A stretch of 64,000 nt of DNA, from positions 186,001 to 250,000 of the forward strand of contig JAGQSC010000019.1 in NCBI GenBank assembly GCA_020439745.1. Reading direction: 5' to 3'. This document shows, piece by piece, positions 28,064-41,044 of this stretch. Positions within the stretch are counted from its first letter, which is position 1, and every line of letters starts with the position of its first letter. The notes below the pieces were generated by a model that saw nothing but the letters and a program-made list of their open reading frames with translations, did not search any database and was not told the DNA's origin. This DNA is from Acidobacteriota bacterium (lineage in GTDB: Bacteria; Acidobacteriota; Holophagae; Acanthopleuribacterales; Acanthopleuribacteraceae). A program made the position numbers and the translations under genes.

Positions 28064-29467
28064 ATGCAGCTGGAACGCTTTAGTCTCACACCGGCCATCA
28101 TCAACCGAATCCTGACCGTAGCCATGAGTCGGGGTGCCAACTTTGCCGATTTGTACTGCGAATACAGCCGGTACGAAGGCTTGGGATTGGAGGAGGGCAT
28201 CCTCAAATCTGCCAGCGCCAGTATTGAATGCGGGGCCGGTGTACGCGTCGTCGAGGGCGAGAAGACTGGTTACGCCTACACCGAAGTGATGGAAGAGTCA
28301 CACTTTCAGCGGGCAGCACGGACAGCAGCTGCAATTGCCCATCAGGGTGGCGACCAAAAAGCAGTCCAGGTGGCTCCATTCGGAATCGGCGCGTTTTACC
28401 CGGTCCCCGACCCTGTGATTGACGAACCCATGCCGCGGAAGATTGACTTGATCTATTTAGCCGACAAAACGGCTCGAGCTCACCACAGTGACGTGAAACA
28501 AGTAAGCGTGTATTTGGGCACAGCGCACAAGTTGATCCTCATGGCCGACAGCCGAGGACGATTGGTCCAAGATATTCAGCCTATGATTCGTTTCACGGTG
28601 AGCGTTGTCGTGGAACGGGGCGGCGAACGCCAAACCGCAATGGCCGGCGATGGCGGACGATTGGGTGCGTCGTTTCTCACGCGAGATCGCGCCATCGAAC
28701 TCTCGAAAAAGGCTGTCGATGAGGCACTTTTACTGCTCGACGCTAGACCTGCGCCATCGGGCATGTGGCCTGTAATCCTCGCGCCCGGTGATTCGGGCAT
28801 CCTTTTACACGAGGCGATTGGGCACCCTCTGGAAGCCGACTTCAATCGAAAACAGTCGAGTGCCTACGCCAATCGTCTTGGGGAAAAGGTGGCCGACGCA
28901 CAATGTACCATTATTGACGACGGCACGATTGAAGGCGACCGCGGTGCGATTAATATCGACGACGAACTCAACCCCTCGCAGAAAACCACCCTGATCGAGC
29001 AAGGCCGCTTGGTTGGTTATATGTGCGATGAAACCTCTGCCCGCTTCTTCGGTGTGGAAAGCACCGGGAACGGTCGCAGGGAGTCATACCGCTACCAACC
29101 TATCCCTAGAATGCGCACCACCTATATGCTTCCCGGCGACTACGATCCCCAAGAAATCATTGCATCAACCGAAAAGGGTCTTTACTGCAAAACGTTTAAG
29201 GGCGGACAGGTCAACATCTCAAATGGCAACTTCACCTTTGTCCCCAGCGAGGCCTATTGGATAGAGGGTGGCCGCGTCTCTCATGCCGTCAAGAACTGCA
29301 CGTTGATAGGTAACGGACCAGATGCATTAAGCGAGGTGACGATGGTCGGTAACGATTTTGCCATCAGCTCCGGTATTTGGACTTGTGGCAAGGACGGGCA
29401 GTCAGCGCCCGTCGGGGTTGGCCTGCCAACGATCAAAATCCGCGAGATGACCGTGGGAGGCGCTTAA
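28064..29467 (+). CDS. tldD: Metalloprotease TldD
   Basis: 467 residues. The zinc site is HEAIGHPLEADF near residue 248, in the HExxxH form typical of TldD. TldD and TldE form a heterodimer that digests unfolded peptides and matures some ribosomal peptides. The ATG follows TTTGGAGG with good spacing. The stop shares a base with the tldE start (TAATG). A -10-like TACACT at 28038-28043 may drive the pair. Confidence 0.93.
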   Translation: MQLERFSLTPAIINRILTVAMSRGANFADLYCEYSRYEGLGLEEGILKSASASIECGAGVRVVEGEKTGYAYTEVMEESHFQRAARTAAAIAHQGGDQKAVQVAPFGIGAFYPVPDPVIDEPMPRKIDLIYLADKTARAHHSDVKQVSVYLGTAHKLILMADSRGRLVQDIQPMIRFTVSVVVERGGERQTAMAGDGGRLGASFLTRDRAIELSKKAVDEALLLLDARPAPSGMWPVILAPGDSGILLHEAIGHPLEADFNRKQSSAYANRLGEKVADAQCTIIDDGTIEGDRGAINIDDELNPSQKTTLIEQGRLVGYMCDETSARFFGVESTGNGRRESYRYQPIPRMRTTYMLPGDYDPQEIIASTEKGLYCKTFKGGQVNISNGNFTFVPSEAYWIEGGRVSHAVKNCTLIGNGPDALSEVTMVGNDFAISSGIWTCGKDGQSAPVGVGLPTIKIREMTVGGA

Positions 29468-32903: not shown

Positions 32904-33497
32904 TCATCTGATTCGGTCTACGATCATCTTGCCAAAAGACCGATGAAACAAGCCGAGAAATAGACCGAAGTATAGGCCCGTGAATACGAGCAGCACCGAG
33001 ATCACTGGTATCAGGGAATACGTGATCAACTGTTGGAAGCTGCGCGGCGAAACCCAAACCACAAACAACAAAACAAATGCGTTCATAAGTAAACAGGCAC
33101 CTACATCAATGGGCCATGAGAATCTGGACTCCGGTTCTTCGACCGGGCGCGACTCCGTCTCCGGGACCGGCATGGCTATTACAGGCGCGGCCTCTTTCCT
33201 TCGGACAGGAGGCGGCGTTGCTTCCGGTATGTCTATGGGCGGCGGTGGCTGACCCTCAAATGGGTCCCAGGTCATTTCGTCGGGTCGCAATCTCCCAAAC
33301 AAGAAACGGGGTTTGTCACGTGCCAAACCAATGTCAACCATCACTTGAATCGAAGTGTCACAGTCTGGACATCGCTCGGCGTGTCCCATTTCGGTCGACC
33401 CACACACCAGGCAACGCGTCGGCTGCCAAGTCACTGTGTCAGTGTGTGAAGAAGAAGAACCACTGGTCCTTGTCGATTGCGGTGATGCTTCCGTCAT
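32904..33497 (-). CDS. Zinc-ribbon membrane protein, partly RDD-like
   Basis: 197 residues. A Ser/Thr-rich start is followed by a zinc ribbon (CLVCG...CPDCDTS, about residues 29-46), a Pro/Glu-rich linker, and two membrane helices near the end (about 130-150 and 158-180). The C-terminus FHRSFGKMIVDRIR looks like a cut RDD-type end. The ATG at 33497 lies 59 bp inside the upstream TPR gene; a GTG at 33434 directly past that gene's stop is an alternative. Function unknown. Confidence 0.68.
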   Translation of the reverse strand: MTEASPQSTRTSGSSSSHTDTVTWQPTRCLVCGSTEMGHAERCPDCDTSIQVMVDIGLARDKPRFLFGRLRPDEMTWDPFEGQPPPPIDIPEATPPPVRRKEAAPVIAMPVPETESRPVEEPESRFSWPIDVGACLLMNAFVLLFVVWVSPRSFQQLITYSLIPVISVLLVFTGLYFGLFLGLFHRSFGKMIVDRIR

Positions 33498-35118
33498 AGT
33501 ACATGTTTATCACGCGGAGATGCTTGAACAGAGTCTTGTTGGCTTTGTTCAGCACAGCAGCGCGCCTGAAATAAATATGGGCCTCGTCCAATTCCCCTAA
33601 TTTCACTTTGGACAATGCATGTCGCTCATCGATATCCGCTAGCTTAATTCGAAGCGAATCATTGTTCAGATCGGCCGTTAATGCCGCTGACAAAACCTCT
33701 TCGGCTCTGACTACGTCGCCACTTTCCACGTATTTATCCACACTCTTCAATTGATCAGTGCTCACGTCTTTGGCAACGAACCGATCGGGCAATCGTTCCA
33801 ACTCGGACCCAGCCTGTTTCACGACGTTGTCCAGACGCGTAATTTGACCCTGTACCACTTCATCCTTTTGAGGCAAAGCCTGCAGATCTTTTAGTCGCGG
33901 CTCGGCTACATTCTTAGCTTGCTCAAACGCGTAATAGGCAAAGAGAAACTCACCTTCATCCAAGTAATCCATGCCGATATTCACGAGATCCTCACTGCGT
34001 CGTTCAGGATCGTCCCATGCCTCTTCCTGGAGCATGACTTGAAGTGGCACATCGGCTCGTTCTAGCACCAGCTGCCGTTGATACATTTGCCATCCCTGCC
34101 AGCCGGCTACACCCAATATGGGAATCAAGACGATGACCGCAATCAACCATTTGGAGACCTTACGTTCCTTCTTGGGCTTCACGATCTTGACAACCTTGCG
34201 CGACTCGGCTTTACGGCCTTCGGCAGCGTCCGGCGTGAAATAGCGCGTGATCTCATCATCAGTGGCAGACGAAATGTGCTGGGGTTGCGTTTCCTCAATT
34301 TCCAGCGAACGGATCTCCGTGATTTGGCGCTTGCGCTCCTCAATCGCTTCTTTGAGCTTCTGAGCACCTTCCAAGTGAGGTGCCTTGATCAAGAGATGCA
34401 ACACCTTGCGTTCTGCCTCTGCGTGATCACCCGTGCGGAAGTCTGATTCGGCTTCATTGAGCATGTCCACATATTCCTGCTCTTTTTCCAAAGCCGCCTT
34501 CGTTTTTCGGATACATTCCTGGGTCTCTTTGTGACCTGGGTGGTACTTGAGTATGTACTCCCATTTCTCCAGCGCCGCGGTGAAATCCTTATGTTTGTAA
34601 AGCTGAAGACCTTCGTTGTAAATAGTGAGGAGTTGGTTCTTATCGGGAACATCCTCATCGTTTTCAGCTGTGTGTTCGGCACCGATCATGGCACGTACAT
34701 TATTCAAATAGTCGATCGCCATGGTGTTTTCAGGATCGATACTCAAAGCCGTTTCCCAAGCCTTGACTGCGTTTCCGTAATCTTGCACTTCGTACAGTTT
34801 TACGCCTTGTTGCACATAATCACCCGCATCACCGGTGGGAGCAGGGGTCTCCTGACTCACCGATGATTCTGCTCGCTCGGTGTAATAAACGGTCGATTCG
34901 GTAGGTGGAGGTGTCGCAGGAGCGGCCGCTGCCGTTGCCTTGACGCGCGCTTCTATCTTGGCAAAAAGGCCCTCAAGATCGGCGTTCCCGGGGTGACGCG
35001 CCACAAGTTCGGTACAGAGTTCCAAGGCCCGAACATATTCTTTTTCACGATAGAGCTGTTTGAGTTCCTCGAGAATCTCCTTTGAGCTTCTCTTGACGGG
35101 TGGCTTTTGGTCGTTCAA
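33439..35118 (-). CDS. TPR-repeat membrane protein
   Basis: 559 residues from a TTG at 35118 preceded by GGAAGGAAA. The cytoplasmic half has a TPR-like start, a Pro-rich linker and two to three TPRs (YVQQGVKLYEVQDYGNAVKA, LLTIYNEGLQLYKHKDFTA). One membrane helix (SKWLIAVIVLIPILGVAGW, about 318-336) leads to a further helical domain. A scaffold role is likely, but partners are unknown. It overlaps the next gene (zinc ribbon) by 59 bp and so may work with it. Confidence 0.78.
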   Translation of the reverse strand: MNDQKPPVKRSSKEILEELKQLYREKEYVRALELCTELVARHPGNADLEGLFAKIEARVKATAAAAPATPPPTESTVYYTERAESSVSQETPAPTGDAGDYVQQGVKLYEVQDYGNAVKAWETALSIDPENTMAIDYLNNVRAMIGAEHTAENDEDVPDKNQLLTIYNEGLQLYKHKDFTAALEKWEYILKYHPGHKETQECIRKTKAALEKEQEYVDMLNEAESDFRTGDHAEAERKVLHLLIKAPHLEGAQKLKEAIEERKRQITEIRSLEIEETQPQHISSATDDEITRYFTPDAAEGRKAESRKVVKIVKPKKERKVSKWLIAVIVLIPILGVAGWQGWQMYQRQLVLERADVPLQVMLQEEAWDDPERRSEDLVNIGMDYLDEGEFLFAYYAFEQAKNVAEPRLKDLQALPQKDEVVQGQITRLDNVVKQAGSELERLPDRFVAKDVSTDQLKSVDKYVESGDVVRAEEVLSAALTADLNNDSLRIKLADIDERHALSKVKLGELDEAHIYFRRAAVLNKANKTLFKHLRVINMYYDGSITAIDKDQWFFFFTH

Positions 35119-35348
35119 GAAGCATTTCCTTCCTGCTCAAGAGCTAAGGGCCATTGCTGGATCACATATTCTTTTTCATTCAGAAAATGTGTCCAAATAA
35201 ATAGAATTTATGGATATACACGCAACATGGCCAGTTTATGAAGGAAAGCACGGGATGTCAAGGTAGGGATCACTCGCTTTTATAGTCGAAATCTCCAATC
35301 ACCGTGATAGTATTGTTATGGTTACGGATCCATACCGTGGCTAAATCG
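35119..35348. other. AT-rich intergenic region upstream of the TPR gene
   Basis: About 230 bp with no plausible gene. It is AT-rich near 35168-35220 and would hold the promoter of the TPR gene on the minus strand, but no convincing -35/-10 pair stands out. No RNA gene or known element was recognised. Its right border is the fold-back element. Confidence 0.5.
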
Positions 35349-35461
35349 GGGGGATGCAATCCCGCAACTCAATTTCCCACCAACTTAATGTCCTTCCAAA
35401 AATTGGCCCATCTATTCTAGGCCCACCTAAATTAGGCCCACCAATCTCAGTTGCATCCCCC
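35349..35461. repeat. Fold-back element of degenerate 15-bp units behind recG
   Basis: Bounded by a perfect 11-bp inverted repeat: GGGGGATGCAA (35349-35359) and TTGCATCCCCC (35451-35461). Inside, CCC-led units recur with a 15-bp step from 35361 (35361, 35376, 35391, 35407, 35422, 35437), one with an extra base. Two carry TAGGCCCACC exactly. The element starts right at the recG stop. On the minus strand one frame reads like decayed pentapeptides (GGPNL, GGPRI, DGPIF) but has no start codon. No target-site duplication was found. Confidence 0.62.
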
Positions 35462-37492
35462 TCATTGAGCAAAAGGAAACCCATCGACCCAGCGCTGGTA
35501 CTCAGGGACAGGTGCCAACCTATCTACGACGGCTTTGATCGTCAAGAAGAGCTGGCGATCGAGCCACGGATCAGCGACACGAAAAGACATAAACCCGCTT
35601 TGTGTGGTTCCCATAAGTGCGCCAAATCCGCGTTGAGCCAAATCGTATTCTGCGATGGCGAACCCATCCTGGATCCTTTCCATAACCCGTAAGCGTTCTA
35701 GCGTTTCTTGGGCCACAGGTACATCCACAATCAAGAAGCAGGTGCCTTGTCGGTCTCTGCGGCCCACGCGACCCCTTAACTGGTGAAGCTGTGACAAGCC
35801 AAAACGGTCTGCTCCATCAATCACCATCACCGTCGCATGACCCACATCCACACCCACTTCAATGACCGTTGTGGCTACGACCACATCCAGTTCTCCTGCT
35901 TGCAGTCTTTGCATCACATCTTCCACCAGCCCGCGTTCCATCTGGCCGTGGGCTAGTCCCACCCGACCCGATCCAAAGCTCTGAGCCAGTGTCTGGCTCA
36001 CGTCAACAGCAGATCGCGTGGCATTTTCTTCGTCGCCTTCAACCAGAGGCACCACCCAGAACACCGCCTCTCCATGTGCGATTCGCGTTTTTGCAAAGCG
36101 GACCACTTGATCGCGATTCGTCGACTTCTTCAAAATGGTTTTCACAGGCAAACGACCTTTGGGCATCTCCATAATCTGATGAACGTCATAATCCGCATAA
36201 AGGGTGAGCGCTAAGGAGCGAGGAATGGGGGTGGCAGAGAGTCCCAGATAGTGGGCGTTCTTGCCTTTTCGCAATAGTTTCGACCTTTGCTTGACGCCGA
36301 ACCGGTGCTGCTCGTCAACCACCACCAAGCGTAAGTCCCGATAAACCATGTCGTCTTGGAAGAGGCGGTGTGTTCCCACAATCACCTGAATGGCGCCTTT
36401 CGCAATGGCTTGCCGATTCGCTTCTTGTTCGTCTGAGGATAAGCGTGATGTCATCAAACAGCTTCGAACGTTGAAGCGGGCCAGCACCGAGCACGCATCC
36501 TTGGCATGCTGACTGGCCAATACCGAGGTAGGACAGAGAATTGCGGCTTGACCACCTGCCATGGCCACCAAATACGCAGCAAACCAAGCAATCAGGGTCT
36601 TGCCACATCCCACATCACCCTGGACCAAGGAAAAGACCCTACGCCCCTGTTCCATTTCCGTTGCGATCGAACGCATCACGTTGCATTGGTCTTCCGTAGG
36701 CGTAAACGGCAAGGTACCCAAAAACGCGTCCTTGGTCGCCTTAGCCACCGACAGCGCAGCCACGCGTTTCCTCCCTCGCGAACGACGCTTTAAACCCCAT
36801 GCGAAAAAGAACAGCTCCTCGGAAATGAGTCGTCTGATGGCAGGCGACTGGCGCGAAGCGATCTCCCGGACCTGATCCATGGATTCAGGCAGATGAAGCA
36901 GACGAAAGGCGTCTTTGCGACTAACTGGAAATGCGCTGCCGATCTCATGGGGCACCGGATCTTCATCAGGCATGCTGGTGATTAGTGACAGGATCCACTG
37001 CGCCAGACGATCTGTCTTCAGCCCGGCAATCTGTCGATAGACTGGCTGGACTCGAGGTGATTCAGTGAAAGGTACCGATTTCGGGTTTGAAAGGTACCGA
37101 CCCGTACGGTCAAAATCCACCTTGCCATAGAGCGCCACTTCCGCACCCTTCAGGAAGTTCCGCACAAGGTATGGCTGATTGAAGTAAATGCACCGAATCG
37201 TCCCCAATCCATCGTCAACTAGCATTTCAAAAAAGGGAATGCGGCGTTTGGAGGTTCGATGGACGGCCGTATGGATGACGCGGCCTCGGATCAGCGCCTT
37301 TTGACCAACCACCGCCTGAGGAATGGGGGTCGCTGCAGTCAAATCTAGATAGGTCCTTGGCAAATGCCATATGAGATCACGAACACGCTCAAGGCCCGCT
37401 GCACGCAGTTTTTCAGCACTTTTTCGGCCGAGCCCGGTTACCTTGGCATCCTCAAGCAGCGTATTCTCGAAGGCCCACAAAGCATCATTCAA
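35462..37492 (-). CDS. recG: ATP-dependent DNA helicase RecG
   Basis: 676 residues. An N-terminal wedge/OB domain (about 70-160) leads to helicase motifs: Walker A QGDVGCGKT, motif II as DEQHRFG, LGLSATPIPR, TTVIEVGVDV and QLHQLRGRVGRRDRQG. Known role: branch migration and remodelling of stalled forks and Holliday junctions. The ATG lies 8 bp inside the VWFA gene end, so it is last in the truA-to-recG run. The fold-back element directly follows its stop. Confidence 0.95.
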   Translation of the reverse strand: MNDALWAFENTLLEDAKVTGLGRKSAEKLRAAGLERVRDLIWHLPRTYLDLTAATPIPQAVVGQKALIRGRVIHTAVHRTSKRRIPFFEMLVDDGLGTIRCIYFNQPYLVRNFLKGAEVALYGKVDFDRTGRYLSNPKSVPFTESPRVQPVYRQIAGLKTDRLAQWILSLITSMPDEDPVPHEIGSAFPVSRKDAFRLLHLPESMDQVREIASRQSPAIRRLISEELFFFAWGLKRRSRGRKRVAALSVAKATKDAFLGTLPFTPTEDQCNVMRSIATEMEQGRRVFSLVQGDVGCGKTLIAWFAAYLVAMAGGQAAILCPTSVLASQHAKDACSVLARFNVRSCLMTSRLSSDEQEANRQAIAKGAIQVIVGTHRLFQDDMVYRDLRLVVVDEQHRFGVKQRSKLLRKGKNAHYLGLSATPIPRSLALTLYADYDVHQIMEMPKGRLPVKTILKKSTNRDQVVRFAKTRIAHGEAVFWVVPLVEGDEENATRSAVDVSQTLAQSFGSGRVGLAHGQMERGLVEDVMQRLQAGELDVVVATTVIEVGVDVGHATVMVIDGADRFGLSQLHQLRGRVGRRDRQGTCFLIVDVPVAQETLERLRVMERIQDGFAIAEYDLAQRGFGALMGTTQSGFMSFRVADPWLDRQLFLTIKAVVDRLAPVPEYQRWVDGFPFAQ

Positions 37493-38597
37493 GCGTATAG
37501 CCCTTACGCGCCAATACTCGTGCGCCGAATTTCTTGACCTTCACCTCCAGAGACTGAAATCCCTTAGACGTCGCCAAGGGTACGACTCCTAACATGTACT
37601 GTTGACGCAAATCCGTCAGCACGCGATTGAAAGGCTCCGTCAAGTCACCAAATCCATCCGCGTGATAGTAACGCCCACCCGTTTCATCGGCCATGGCCGA
37701 GAGGGCATCCTCATTGATGCGTTTACCCAAGCCAATCGTGAAAATCGCCACTTCGGCATTTTGAGCATGGGTAATAGTCTGTCGAAACAGCCTCGCTTTG
37801 TCTTGTGGTTCCTCGTAGATGGAGTCTCGACCGTCCGTGAACAACACGATGGCACGCCTACCTCTTTGCCGCTTTGCCACGCGATCCAGCGCCAACAAGA
37901 GCGTATCGAACAAAGCTGTTTCGCCGTAGGCCTCAAATCCCTCAATGTGGCGGCGCATGATCTTGGCGTCATTCGTAAAGTCCATCACGATTTCAGATGC
38001 ATTGCCAAAGCTGAACAGAGCCACACGATCTGTCTTATTCAATTGATCCAGAAAATGCACAGCCTCCTTCTTCAAGGTATCCATGGCGCCGCGCAACGAT
38101 GACGAAGTATCCAAAACAAGCACGAGATCAAGCGGTACTTGTTCCCGACTGAAAGTCTCAAGTTTTACAGGCGTGCCGTTTTCAAACACGCGGAAATCTT
38201 CACGTTCCAACCGTTCCACAGAACGACCAAATCGGCTCTGTACTATGGCCGAGATCAAGACAAGTCGTGTTGATTCTTCATAAAAGACACGCAATTCATC
38301 TGTGCGTATAGGTGGCGATAGGACCACGCTTCCATCGGCAAGCGCCACTGATGCCTGAATGACACGCCGATCAAATGACTCCCCAAAAAAGACATCCAGC
38401 GACGAATGCCAACCCGATTCGTCGAACACCACCTTCCCATCTATTTCGAGTTTCGTGCGGACAACCTCGTTAGGCGCGTCACATTGCAGCACTACTTCAT
38501 AAGAACCGGACACATACGCGCCATTGGTGGGGTCCAAAATTGTTAGTTCCTGGGCCATCAGTCCGCCAGCAATGGCTAGTACGAGAATTGACTTCAT
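37485..38597 (-). CDS. Secreted VWFA-domain protein, acidobacterial type
   Basis: 370 residues from ATG 38597 with GGGAGG upstream. A signal peptide (MKSILVLAIAGGLMAQ) is followed by an Ig-like region, then the short strand block REDFRVFENGTPVKLETFSR that precedes the VWFA domain in the family known as acidobacterial VWFA-related. The MIDAS motif is DTSSSLRG, with later FTDGRDS. Probably binds a partner outside the cell in a metal-dependent way. Position between priA and recG suggests co-expression only, not shared function. Confidence 0.87.
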   Translation of the reverse strand: MKSILVLAIAGGLMAQELTILDPTNGAYVSGSYEVVLQCDAPNEVVRTKLEIDGKVVFDESGWHSSLDVFFGESFDRRVIQASVALADGSVVLSPPIRTDELRVFYEESTRLVLISAIVQSRFGRSVERLEREDFRVFENGTPVKLETFSREQVPLDLVLVLDTSSSLRGAMDTLKKEAVHFLDQLNKTDRVALFSFGNASEIVMDFTNDAKIMRRHIEGFEAYGETALFDTLLLALDRVAKRQRGRRAIVLFTDGRDSIYEEPQDKARLFRQTITHAQNAEVAIFTIGLGKRINEDALSAMADETGGRYYHADGFGDLTEPFNRVLTDLRQQYMLGVVPLATSKGFQSLEVKVKKFGARVLARKGYTLE

Positions 38598-38617
38598 GAT
38601 GCCTCCCGTTGTGGAAC

Positions 38618-41044
38618 TCAAGAGAATTGTACCGGATCGACATCCACGACCACGTCACCCAACTGAAGCACTCGGCTCTCGATCCCAGAAGCCACAACTC
38701 GGTGGACCAGTTCGTGCATCCATGCACGTTGATCCGATTTGATGAGGATCTGAAAACGAAAGATGTTTTTGACCTTGGCAAGCGGTGCTGGGCTTGGTCC
38801 CAAGACGACTAACTTGGTGCCCTGTTTTGACATGCTCAATTCTCGGGCCAACCATTTGATTTCTTGCAAGGCCTTGTCACGGTCGCGGTTCTTGACGATC
38901 ACATGGACTAAATGCGCGTAAGGCGGATAGAACAAACGTTCCCGATAATGCATTTCTCGCTTGGCAAAACCCAAGTAATCGTGGATCGAAGCCAATTGGA
39001 TACTGTAGTGCTCCGGCATGTAGGTTTGAACGACGACATGGCCAGGAAGTTCCCCGCGGCCACTACGTCCCGCAACTTGGGTAATCAGTTGAAAGGTAGA
39101 TTCTGCACATCTGAGGTCCGGAACCCTCAGGCTCATGTCCGCGTTCAAGATACCTACCACCGTCACATTGGGGAAGTCATGTCCTTTGGCAATCATCTGA
39201 GTGCCCACAAGGATGCGCGTACGACCTGCGCGGAAGCGCTCTAGAATGGAGTGGTGCGTGTGTTTCGCCGAAAGGCGGTCGCGGTCTAGCCGATCCACGA
39301 CTTCGCAGCCATAGCGCGTTTGTAATGCCGCCTCTACTTGCTGTGTCCCTTCACCAAAGAACTGCAGCACCGATGCACTCTCACTGCACGCAGGACATGA
39401 ACTCGGTACCGCCTTCTGCGCGTCGCAGTAGTGACAGCGCAGCCGGTGTTGGTCCTTGTGGTAGGTGAGGGTGACTTCGCACTGGTTACACATCAACACG
39501 TCGCCGCATTTTCGACACATCATGAAACTGTGATAGCCACGTCGATTCAAAAGAACCATCACTTGATTGCCGTTTTCCACCGCCTTGTCCATGTGGTCGA
39601 TCAGAGCCTTGGAGAATAGCGCACGTTTCCGCTGTCTCTTGAATTCCTCACGCATATCGATGATCTGAACCTCGGGTAAAGGTTTCTGATTGGCGCGTTC
39701 GGCCAAGGTCAACAGCTGAATCTTACCCGTCTGGGCCAAGTACCACGACTCAAGACTGGGTGTGGCGCTGCCCAGCACGATAGGAATGCCCGCGCGATGA
39801 GCCCGAACCATCGCCAAACTGCGCGCATGATAGCGCACCCCATCGCCCTGCTTGTAACTCCCATCGTGTTCCTCATCAACGATGATCAGTCCCAATTGTG
39901 GAAGTGGCGCAAACACAGCGGATCGAGCACCAAGCACGACATCAACCGTGCCATCCATGACTCGCGCCCATTCTCGAACGCGCTTGTTCTTCCCAAAGGC
40001 TGAATGCAGAATTGCTAGTCGTTGACCGAACCGAGCTTGAATTCGCCGATTCATCATTGGGGTCAGCGAAATCTCGGGCACCAAGAACAGGGCCTGTTTA
40101 CCCTGATCTAAGCACCGCTCGATGGCATTCAGATAAACTTCCGTCTTGCCGGACCCCGTCACGCCATACAACAAGCAGGGCGTGAATCCTCCCGCTTGCA
40201 ACTTGGATGCAAGAAACGCAAACGCCGCTTGCTGCTCCGCTGTCATAACGAGTGTCGACTGGTTTCGTTGCGCGCTAGCCACGTCGAATTCACTTTCGTC
40301 CAGTTGAAAGCGATGGATCCAGCCCTTCTCTATCAGCGCAGAAAAGGTGGCCGAACCGCCTTCAATGTGAGCATTGACTTCGCGAACGGTTTTCGGGCCT
40401 CCACTCTGAAGGAATTCCATGACCTGTCTCTGCTTGAGGGCACGGGCAGGTACGTCTGCAGATCGCCCGGCATCTGTCATTTCAACCACGTCCACCTTGG
40501 GTATTGCATGACGGCGGTCTGGACGATCCAGTACGATCCAGCCGGCATCCTCCCAAGCGCGCAGTTGGGTGTATGTCAAATCTGACTGCGCCGCTAATTC
40601 CCAAGCGTTTCGGGACATTGGCCTCACCAGAGACCTCAACAATCGAGACTCCAAGCGGTTGGGATGCAATTGCGACCAATTCGATCCAGCCGGAGTCAGT
40701 GAATAACAGCTTGGATTGGCCGAAAGCGAACCCGGCGGCAGTGCCAGTTTCACCACCTCACCCAAGGGTGCCTGATAGTAATGTGCCGCAAACGAAACCA
40801 ATTCCACGATATCGGGTTGAAGGAGTCGCCGCTGCGAATCGACGTAAATCAGATCGCGCACACCTGCACGGGAGCCTATGTAGGCATCGCTCATGACGAT
40901 ACCCCACAATGTCTTGCCGCGAAATGGAACCTGAACGCGGTACCCAGCAGCAACCGTGTCGCACAAGGGTTCCGGCACGCGATAGCTCAGAGCACCGGGC
41001 AAAGGCACGGGCACCGCTACATCCACCAGCCACGACTGATTCAC
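38618..41044 (-). CDS. priA: Primosomal protein N' (replication restart helicase)
   Basis: 808 residues from a GTG that overlaps the biotin-carrier stop as GTGA. An N-terminal DNA-binding domain (VPLPGALSYRVPEPL) precedes the helicase: GVTGSGKTEVYL, DEEHDGSYKQ, LGSATPSLESW. Eight Cys bind zinc: CRKCGDVLMCNQCEV and CHYCDAQKAVPSSCPAC. PriA reloads the replisome at repaired forks. Together with recG in the same operon this makes a fork-repair pair. Confidence 0.95.
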   Translation of the reverse strand: MNQSWLVDVAVPVPLPGALSYRVPEPLCDTVAAGYRVQVPFRGKTLWGIVMSDAYIGSRAGVRDLIYVDSQRRLLQPDIVELVSFAAHYYQAPLGEVVKLALPPGSLSANPSCYSLTPAGSNWSQLHPNRLESRLLRSLVRPMSRNAWELAAQSDLTYTQLRAWEDAGWIVLDRPDRRHAIPKVDVVEMTDAGRSADVPARALKQRQVMEFLQSGGPKTVREVNAHIEGGSATFSALIEKGWIHRFQLDESEFDVASAQRNQSTLVMTAEQQAAFAFLASKLQAGGFTPCLLYGVTGSGKTEVYLNAIERCLDQGKQALFLVPEISLTPMMNRRIQARFGQRLAILHSAFGKNKRVREWARVMDGTVDVVLGARSAVFAPLPQLGLIIVDEEHDGSYKQGDGVRYHARSLAMVRAHRAGIPIVLGSATPSLESWYLAQTGKIQLLTLAERANQKPLPEVQIIDMREEFKRQRKRALFSKALIDHMDKAVENGNQVMVLLNRRGYHSFMMCRKCGDVLMCNQCEVTLTYHKDQHRLRCHYCDAQKAVPSSCPACSESASVLQFFGEGTQQVEAALQTRYGCEVVDRLDRDRLSAKHTHHSILERFRAGRTRILVGTQMIAKGHDFPNVTVVGILNADMSLRVPDLRCAESTFQLITQVAGRSGRGELPGHVVVQTYMPEHYSIQLASIHDYLGFAKREMHYRERLFYPPYAHLVHVIVKNRDRDKALQEIKWLARELSMSKQGTKLVVLGPSPAPLAKVKNIFRFQILIKSDQRAWMHELVHRVVASGIESRVLQLGDVVVDVDPVQFS

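Follow-up and report, generated by a model that had tools for sequence, protein, structure and literature searches.

The fold-back sequence that lies directly behind recG in the stretch of DNA analysed here (64,000 nucleotides, hereafter the window) almost certainly belongs to a real, conserved family of non-coding RNAs. A small RNA gene would occupy approximately positions 35319-35464 of the + strand of the window. The reading of its function that we favor, to which we give a probability of roughly one half, is that the RNA serves as a decoy (sponge) for a C-binding protein; we infer its transcription, its binding and its role from sequence features and by analogy with known decoy RNAs. From left to right, the features of the locus are:

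33439-35118, - strand: gene for a TPR-repeat protein, the conserved divergent neighbor of the RNA (Pfam TPR_2, E 3.9e-13; elsewhere in the family, homologues begin next to the RNA)
35233-35261, - strand: promoter TTGACA-17-TAAACT of the divergent TPR gene (promoter scan; a like box is present in G001 and G003)
35305-35313, + strand: extended -10-like box TGATAGTAT, a candidate promoter for the RNA (upstream sequence read by eye)
35319-35343, + strand: 5' hairpin (stem of 9 bp) where the RNA is predicted to begin (from folds)
35349-35359, + strand: 5' arm of the closing stem, GGGGGATGCAA (inverted repeat and stem covariation)
35360-35368, + strand: first C-rich site, degenerate, TCCCGCA / CCGCAAC (position-equivalent sites in relatives)
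35375-35381, + strand: C-rich site TCCCACC
35391-35397, + strand: C-rich site TCCTTCC
35406-35412, + strand: C-rich site GCCCATC
35421-35427, + strand: C-rich site GCCCACC
35436-35442, + strand: C-rich site GCCCACC
35451-35461, + strand: 3' arm of the closing stem, TTGCATCCCCC (inverted repeat and stem covariation)
35462-37492, - strand: recG, convergent neighbor of the RNA but not a constant partner (RecG_wedge, E 4.1e-14)

The initial annotation had described perfect 11-bp terminal inverted repeats around six units with a 15-bp step, placed without a gap behind the recG stop. Both arms (35349-35359 and 35451-35461) are indeed perfect, and in a scan of the 64-kb window they form the sole perfect 11-bp inverted repeat with a gap of 60-130 nt; when imperfections are allowed, they extend to 20 nt with 85% complementarity. 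Next to the right arm, with zero gap, comes the stop codon of recG (35462-35464, minus strand). The step between units is real as well, at 15-16 nt on the + strand of the window copy, although five units are clear and the first one is degenerate. The interval originally given, 35349-35461, holds the palindrome but falls short of the conserved object, which adds the 5' hairpin at 35319-35343 and the -10-like box, and which reads on the + strand, opposite to recG; the putative start of the RNA is near 35319-35320, downstream of the box. Folding of both strands, as had been suggested, gave structures better than 200 dinucleotide shuffles in each case, with z -2.87 for the + strand and z -3.50 for the - strand. 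The G-rich strand was nevertheless rejected as the RNA: its fold z is slightly better, yet RNAalifold on four copies showed no gain from covariation for it (+0.12 versus -1.12 for the C-rich strand, on which the promoters and terminators sit). No tRNA or tmRNA was found in the window. Upstream of recG, the reading frame at 37485-38621 (- strand) codes for a von Willebrand A-domain protein (Pfam VWA, E 1.8e-19) and overlaps the recG start, with priA upstream.

A search with the 113-bp sequence, also proposed in the initial annotation, found a single copy in its own genome, all other matches there being 14-24 nt long with E of at least 3, but conservation in relatives. In the nearest relative, the element is kept behind recG at 72% identity, while the RecG protein is only 57% identical. 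The palindrome pattern matched in 4 of 93 genomes of the class, all in the family of the window, and a covariance model built from these four copies (R1) found one strong copy per genome in 7/7 genomes of that family (f1), with E values of 3.6e-8 to 7.9e-26. The family with the RNA includes Acanthopleuribacter pedis KCTC 12899 and Sulfidibacter corallicola M133 (pattern scan, five records).

The terminal inverted repeats and 15-nt units had initially suggested a repetitive extragenic element or a decayed pentapeptide-repeat gene. A mobile or repetitive element, or such a gene remnant, is hardly credible, however, with one copy per genome, a constant gene neighbor in 7/7 family genomes and no frame kept. 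Spacing between units ranges from 12 to 17 nt in relatives, the differences in loop length are not multiples of three, conservation sits in the stem and the C motifs, and stop codons on the + strand fall into different frames from copy to copy, all of which speaks against a pentapeptide origin. A REP- or MITE-like repeat was likewise rejected, there being one strong copy per genome in the seven family genomes and a second, weak one (L082, see below) only in G001.

Relatives of the RNA are also found in family f3. R1 matched there in G010 (E 4.6e-5) and G018 (E 1.1e-3), and a covariance model from nine sequences (R2) added copies in G024 (E 2.8e-12) and G012 (E 3.0e-11), together with weak matches in G016 (0.146), G008 (0.317) and G014 (1.28) that are alike in sequence to one another. 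A model including the last three (R3) then found a copy in G020, a genome absent from every model, at E 2.8e-9. In total, eight of the nine f3 genomes carry relatives of the RNA; the ninth, G022 (83% complete), gave no convincing match. R3 also has a weak match in the window itself, at 29078-29151 (+ strand; 16.2 bits, E 0.11), which is probably due to chance. Among 34 f2 genomes searched with R3, there were weak matches only, including those in G088 (0.198), G023 (0.342), G074 (0.376) and G085 (1.25). These four genomes share a variant form, recognized by eye and without a model of its own, in which a common block CCCGCCAC-N6-7-TCCCACC occurs with further C-rich sites and an intrinsic terminator, and in which a hairpin replaces the third site. 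At the f2 loci (L097:1262-1460, L166:1450-1645, L167:1450-1645 and L169:1440-1650), where this inner hairpin stands instead of one site, the intrinsic terminator is strong, and a 5' GCCC-TTCG-GGGC hairpin is present in three of the four copies. Across 396 genomes of the phylum, R2 matched in five, all of them in f1 and f3, under stricter filters (E up to 0.05) that distant relatives could escape, and the RNA seems confined to the Holophagae.

The gene neighborhood separates the RNA from recG. The TPR gene is its divergent neighbor in 7/7 family genomes, the flank in G004 being too short for a full reading of that gene. In contrast, recG adjoins the RNA in G000, G001 and G004 but not in G002, G003, G005 and G006; in G003, the element lies upstream of the TPR-gene homologue, away from recG. 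A search for copies behind different genes, as initially advised, thus turned up the RNA with a varying second neighbor: by ORF reading, the gene on the other side is of the universal-stress type in G003, CBS-like and COX15-like in G005 and G006, and metallophosphatase-like in G002. The f3 loci differ again, with a thioesterase-like gene beside the RNA in g8, and dxs-like and HD-like genes in g7. The TPR gene of the window (33439-35118, - strand) is devoid of an N-terminal stretch that is present in G002, G003, G005 and G006. The suggestion that the element is the structured 3' end of the operon transcript was right as to a structured RNA but not as to the recG operon: because the constant neighbor is the TPR gene, recG being absent from the vicinity in 4/7 family genomes, and because the strand signals point in the opposite direction, the RNA is not part of the recG mRNA.

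The closing stem is maintained by compensatory changes. In 14 sequences, 98.5% of its 133 cells are paired, and eight of ten pairs have changed on both sides. Its covariation score of 0.611, which was reached by 0/500 shuffles and compares with 0.08-0.16 for slid partners, was obtained on an alignment fitted to the model structure and is thereby biased in favor of the stem. Replacement of the whole stem is plain in the raw sequences, nevertheless, where GGGATGCAA/TTGCATCCC gives way to AGGGAGTGGG/CCCACTCCCT and to ACGGGGGAA/TTTCCCCCGT. A further candidate hairpin, the short GCCA/TGGC that follows the 5' arm, was poorly paired (67.6% of cells in nine sequences) and was therefore left out of R2 and R3. 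The loop enclosed by the stem measures 77-91 nt (14 loops; 75-96 nt as cut for composition), and 15 loops pooled contain 33% C and 7.7% G. The loops are mostly unpaired, with a mean unpaired probability of 0.58-0.86 in 15 loops and with 64-93% of the cytosines unpaired.

Within the loop, five clear C-rich motifs and a weaker one follow each other at steps of 12-17 nt, with the consensus KCYYWYC, and this array extends from the 5' arm to approximately nine nt short of the 3' arm. Over 14 loops, the periodicity of C at 15 nt adds up to 106, versus a mean of 17 (sd 4.3, maximum 36) in 2000 dinucleotide shuffles. A peak at 14.5-15.25 nt is found in 11 of these loops, including that of G024, for which the shuffle fraction is 0.07; the three g7 loops have no 15-nt peak, their steps being 12-14 nt (shuffle fractions 0.39, 0.49 and 0.75). 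The best six-site chains total 838 for 15 loops versus a maximum of 675 for mononucleotide shuffles, in a test whose motif score was written post hoc and whose number of six sites we fixed ourselves; the weakest loop is that of G008, with a shuffle fraction of 0.032. Six of the seven f1 copies, and also those of f3, have a degenerate first site; G002 and the paralogue L082 have a full one. Its equivalents are TCCTACC in G002 and GACCGCC in G003-G006. Because most copies have only a weak version of this site, the number of sites may be five plus one rather than six.

The paralogue is a second copy in G001 (L082:1501-1618; G001:C8:37093-37210, + strand), with a weak match at E 0.25, which lies between a holB-like gene and uvrA and in which a 14-bp stem of unrelated sequence encloses a 90-nt loop with six sites. 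Since this stem is unrelated in sequence, L082 independently supports the notion that stem and array form a unit. Among the other loci examined after a search of 20 genomes with motif-array patterns, none but the main RNA had a convincing stem. Stem scoring took in L082 and eight other matches but not L120, L148 and L144, and the rest, such as L114, L115, L137, L138, L143 and L145, were judged by their matched letters. Another locus, L096:1501-1603 (G016:C121:22776-22878, + strand), was matched by R2 at E 0.0027; it has a 13-bp stem, a few C-rich stretches and no strict KCYYWYC, and might represent a further paralogue or a chance match.

Transcription signals are found in register with the RNA. 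In the other six family genomes, -10-like boxes are present upstream of it (TAGACT, TATAAT, TACAAT, TAGAAT, TAGAAT and TATAAT); the putative promoter of the window shows no -35 match, and the automated promoter scan did not report the box at 35305-35313. A 5' hairpin of different sequence occupies the same place in G001, G003 and G004, and G005 and G006 lack it, their closing stem coming directly after the -10 box. After the 3' arm, a hairpin and a U run follow on the C-rich strand in G003-G006, as read from folds and not listed by the automated terminator scan, and TTTTT follows directly in G001; no clear terminator follows the window copy. In f3, a TGGCAYR-N4-TTGCW box, which we take to be a -24/-12 promoter of sigma-54, lies 38-40 nt upstream of the stem in 7/7 copies first found. 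This pattern occurs seven times on both strands of 1.05 Mb of fetched sequence, exactly at those seven copies, with the provisos that overlapping loci were counted repeatedly and that the pattern was written after the first copies had been seen. The eighth f3 copy, found later, also has it, making 8/8 f3 copies as opposed to 0/7 f1 copies and 0/1 paralogue. Together, these signals (promoter, terminator and sigma-54) assign the RNA to the + strand of the window, and the sigma-54-type promoter suggests that it is produced conditionally in f3.

The same signals bear on two other explanations. As a single copy with palindromic ends and regular spacing, the element could have been a site that acts as DNA, such as an array for protein binding or a fold-back element, but this is highly improbable given that sigma-54 boxes, -10 boxes and terminators are in register on one strand, and that in every copy, the loop of the C-rich strand is G-poor and for the most part unpaired. 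A plain Rho-dependent terminator or insulator, stopping antisense transcription into the neighboring gene, would account for the C-rich, G-poor loop and for the convergent neighbor present in G000, G001 and G004 (recG) and in G003. Such a role is nonetheless quite unlikely: compensatory changes keep the closing stem, which is needless for a rut site, intrinsic terminators are already present in G003-G006, and the copies have promoter-like boxes of their own.

The element was compared with known classes of RNA. No family of Rfam 15 reached its gathering score in four element loci, and with E values of up to 10 admitted, the window copy matched just SCARNA21 (16 bits, cut-off 60) and TMV_UPD-PK1 (14.8, cut-off 33), both at chance level. 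Other structured non-coding RNAs have been described in the same phylum, such as Acido-1 (PMC2864571); neither it nor any other Rfam RNA of the Acidobacteria matched in those loci. A type III toxin-antitoxin system was sought, and no toxin gene was found downstream, where unrelated genes end convergently in G000, G001 and G003-G006. CsrB and RsmZ are multi-site decoys for CsrA, and CrcZ is a decoy for Hfq. The logic of a multi-site protein decoy is shared with CsrB/RsmZ, but the 16 loops contain no GGA motif, and a single open loop carries all the sites, in place of many hairpin loops. Similarly, CrcZ and CrcY of Pseudomonas have several copies of a short motif per RNA and a sigma-54 promoter, for which f3 has a candidate box here, and the proposed titration of a hexameric RNA-binding protein would be a further likeness; in contrast, the motif here is C-rich and not an A-rich CA motif (AAYAAYAA, 0 in 16 loops), the RNA is much shorter, its sites are evenly spaced in a single stem-closed loop, and the f1 promoters are of the -10 type. 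The RNA also resembles rut sites, which are likewise C-rich, G-poor and unpaired over approximately 60-100 nt, with YC-rich motifs at intervals (PMC6582626, PMC12350095, PMC9160355). The loops are indeed C-rich, G-poor, unstructured stretches of 60-100 nt, and the published descriptor, (YC)N9-13 chained six times, is found in 9/16 loops and not in seven, including all four g7 loops and L082. What distinguishes the RNA from rut sites is its conserved closing stem, its own short predicted transcript and promoter, and its greater regularity.

These features can be assembled into a tentative mechanism. The ends of the RNA would pair into the closing stem, here after a 5' hairpin, and hold the G-poor, mostly unpaired loop as a ring; the loop would thereby offer about six C-rich sites (KCYYWYC), one per 13-15 nt, simultaneously to a protein that binds C-rich single strands; and the RNA may draw that protein off its other targets, as CsrB/RsmZ do with CsrA and CrcZ with Hfq. 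Many weak, interchangeable sites in one ring, a short transcript and, in one family, a conditional promoter argue for the design of a protein decoy, though neither for CsrA (no GGA) nor for Hfq by way of CA motifs. None of the decoy RNAs known to us has such an anatomy, with some six similar sites at even intervals in a ring that a stem closes, and this arrangement points to a multivalent, perhaps hexameric, partner.

The C-rich repeats might instead be interchangeable seeds of a base-pairing sRNA for the G-rich translation start regions of many mRNAs, as in sRNAs with C-rich loops from other bacteria. They are unpaired and repeated many times, and an sRNA with C-rich motifs, sX13, has been reported (PMC3771888). 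We consider base pairing unlikely, since seeds need neither even spacing nor a stem-closed ring, the 16 loops have only five occurrences of the anti-Shine-Dalgarno core CCUCC, and the motifs vary (CCCACC, CUUACC, CACAUC) in a manner that better fits the loose rule of a protein.

If the RNA is a protein decoy, its partner might be Rho, which is the first candidate that we name as a bold guess, and a doubtful one; it suggests itself as a reader of C-rich, G-poor RNA with even spacing. Rho is described as six protomers, with about ten nt of rut RNA bound by each (PMC11018607) and with PBS clefts that take YC motifs (PMC12350095), while rut sites are described as C-rich, G-poor and single-stranded stretches of 60-80 nt (PMC6582626) with the descriptor (YC)N9-13 (PMC9160355). 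With comparable reserve, the RNA might be a class-wide antagonist of Rho, its ring of six YC sites providing one for each primary binding cleft. It would then be made on demand, from a sigma-54 promoter in one family, and would damp Rho-dependent termination genome-wide. Of 17 genomes tested, 15 have Rho itself (PF07497); the two exceptions, G018 and G024, are fragmented. The Rho of the window genome can be aligned from end to end with Rho proteins of solved structure. To our knowledge, Rho is present in nearly all bacteria, and its presence therefore does not discriminate; the RNA itself is not universal. Several observations count against a decoy with Rho as its partner, namely that the six-fold (YC)N9-13 chain is found in 9/16 loops only, that the three g7 loops tested lack the 15-nt peak, and that f2 has a hairpin at the third site. 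We also know of no requirement of rut sites for a stem-closed ring.

A decoy or scaffold for another single-strand binder of C or pyrimidines, be it a cold-shock, KH, S1-domain or lineage-specific protein, is possible, if still rather improbable. The anatomy of the RNA fits such a partner equally, and its restriction to the Holophagae (5/396 genomes of the phylum, f1 and f3) suits a lineage-specific partner better than the universal Rho, whereas about six sites over 77-91 nt suit a ring hexamer.

Rof/YaeO is a protein inhibitor of Rho, to which the RNA, if Rho is its partner, would be a counterpart. It would then also be a naturally occurring RNA that soaks up a general termination factor, a kind of which the literature searched yielded no example, and it would allow a direct test of how RNA is read by the six clefts. 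Irrespective of the partner, the family is a well-supported small RNA family that is new to this class of Acidobacteria and matched by no family in Rfam, and its cultured members, Acanthopleuribacter pedis and Sulfidibacter corallicola, make the RNA testable.
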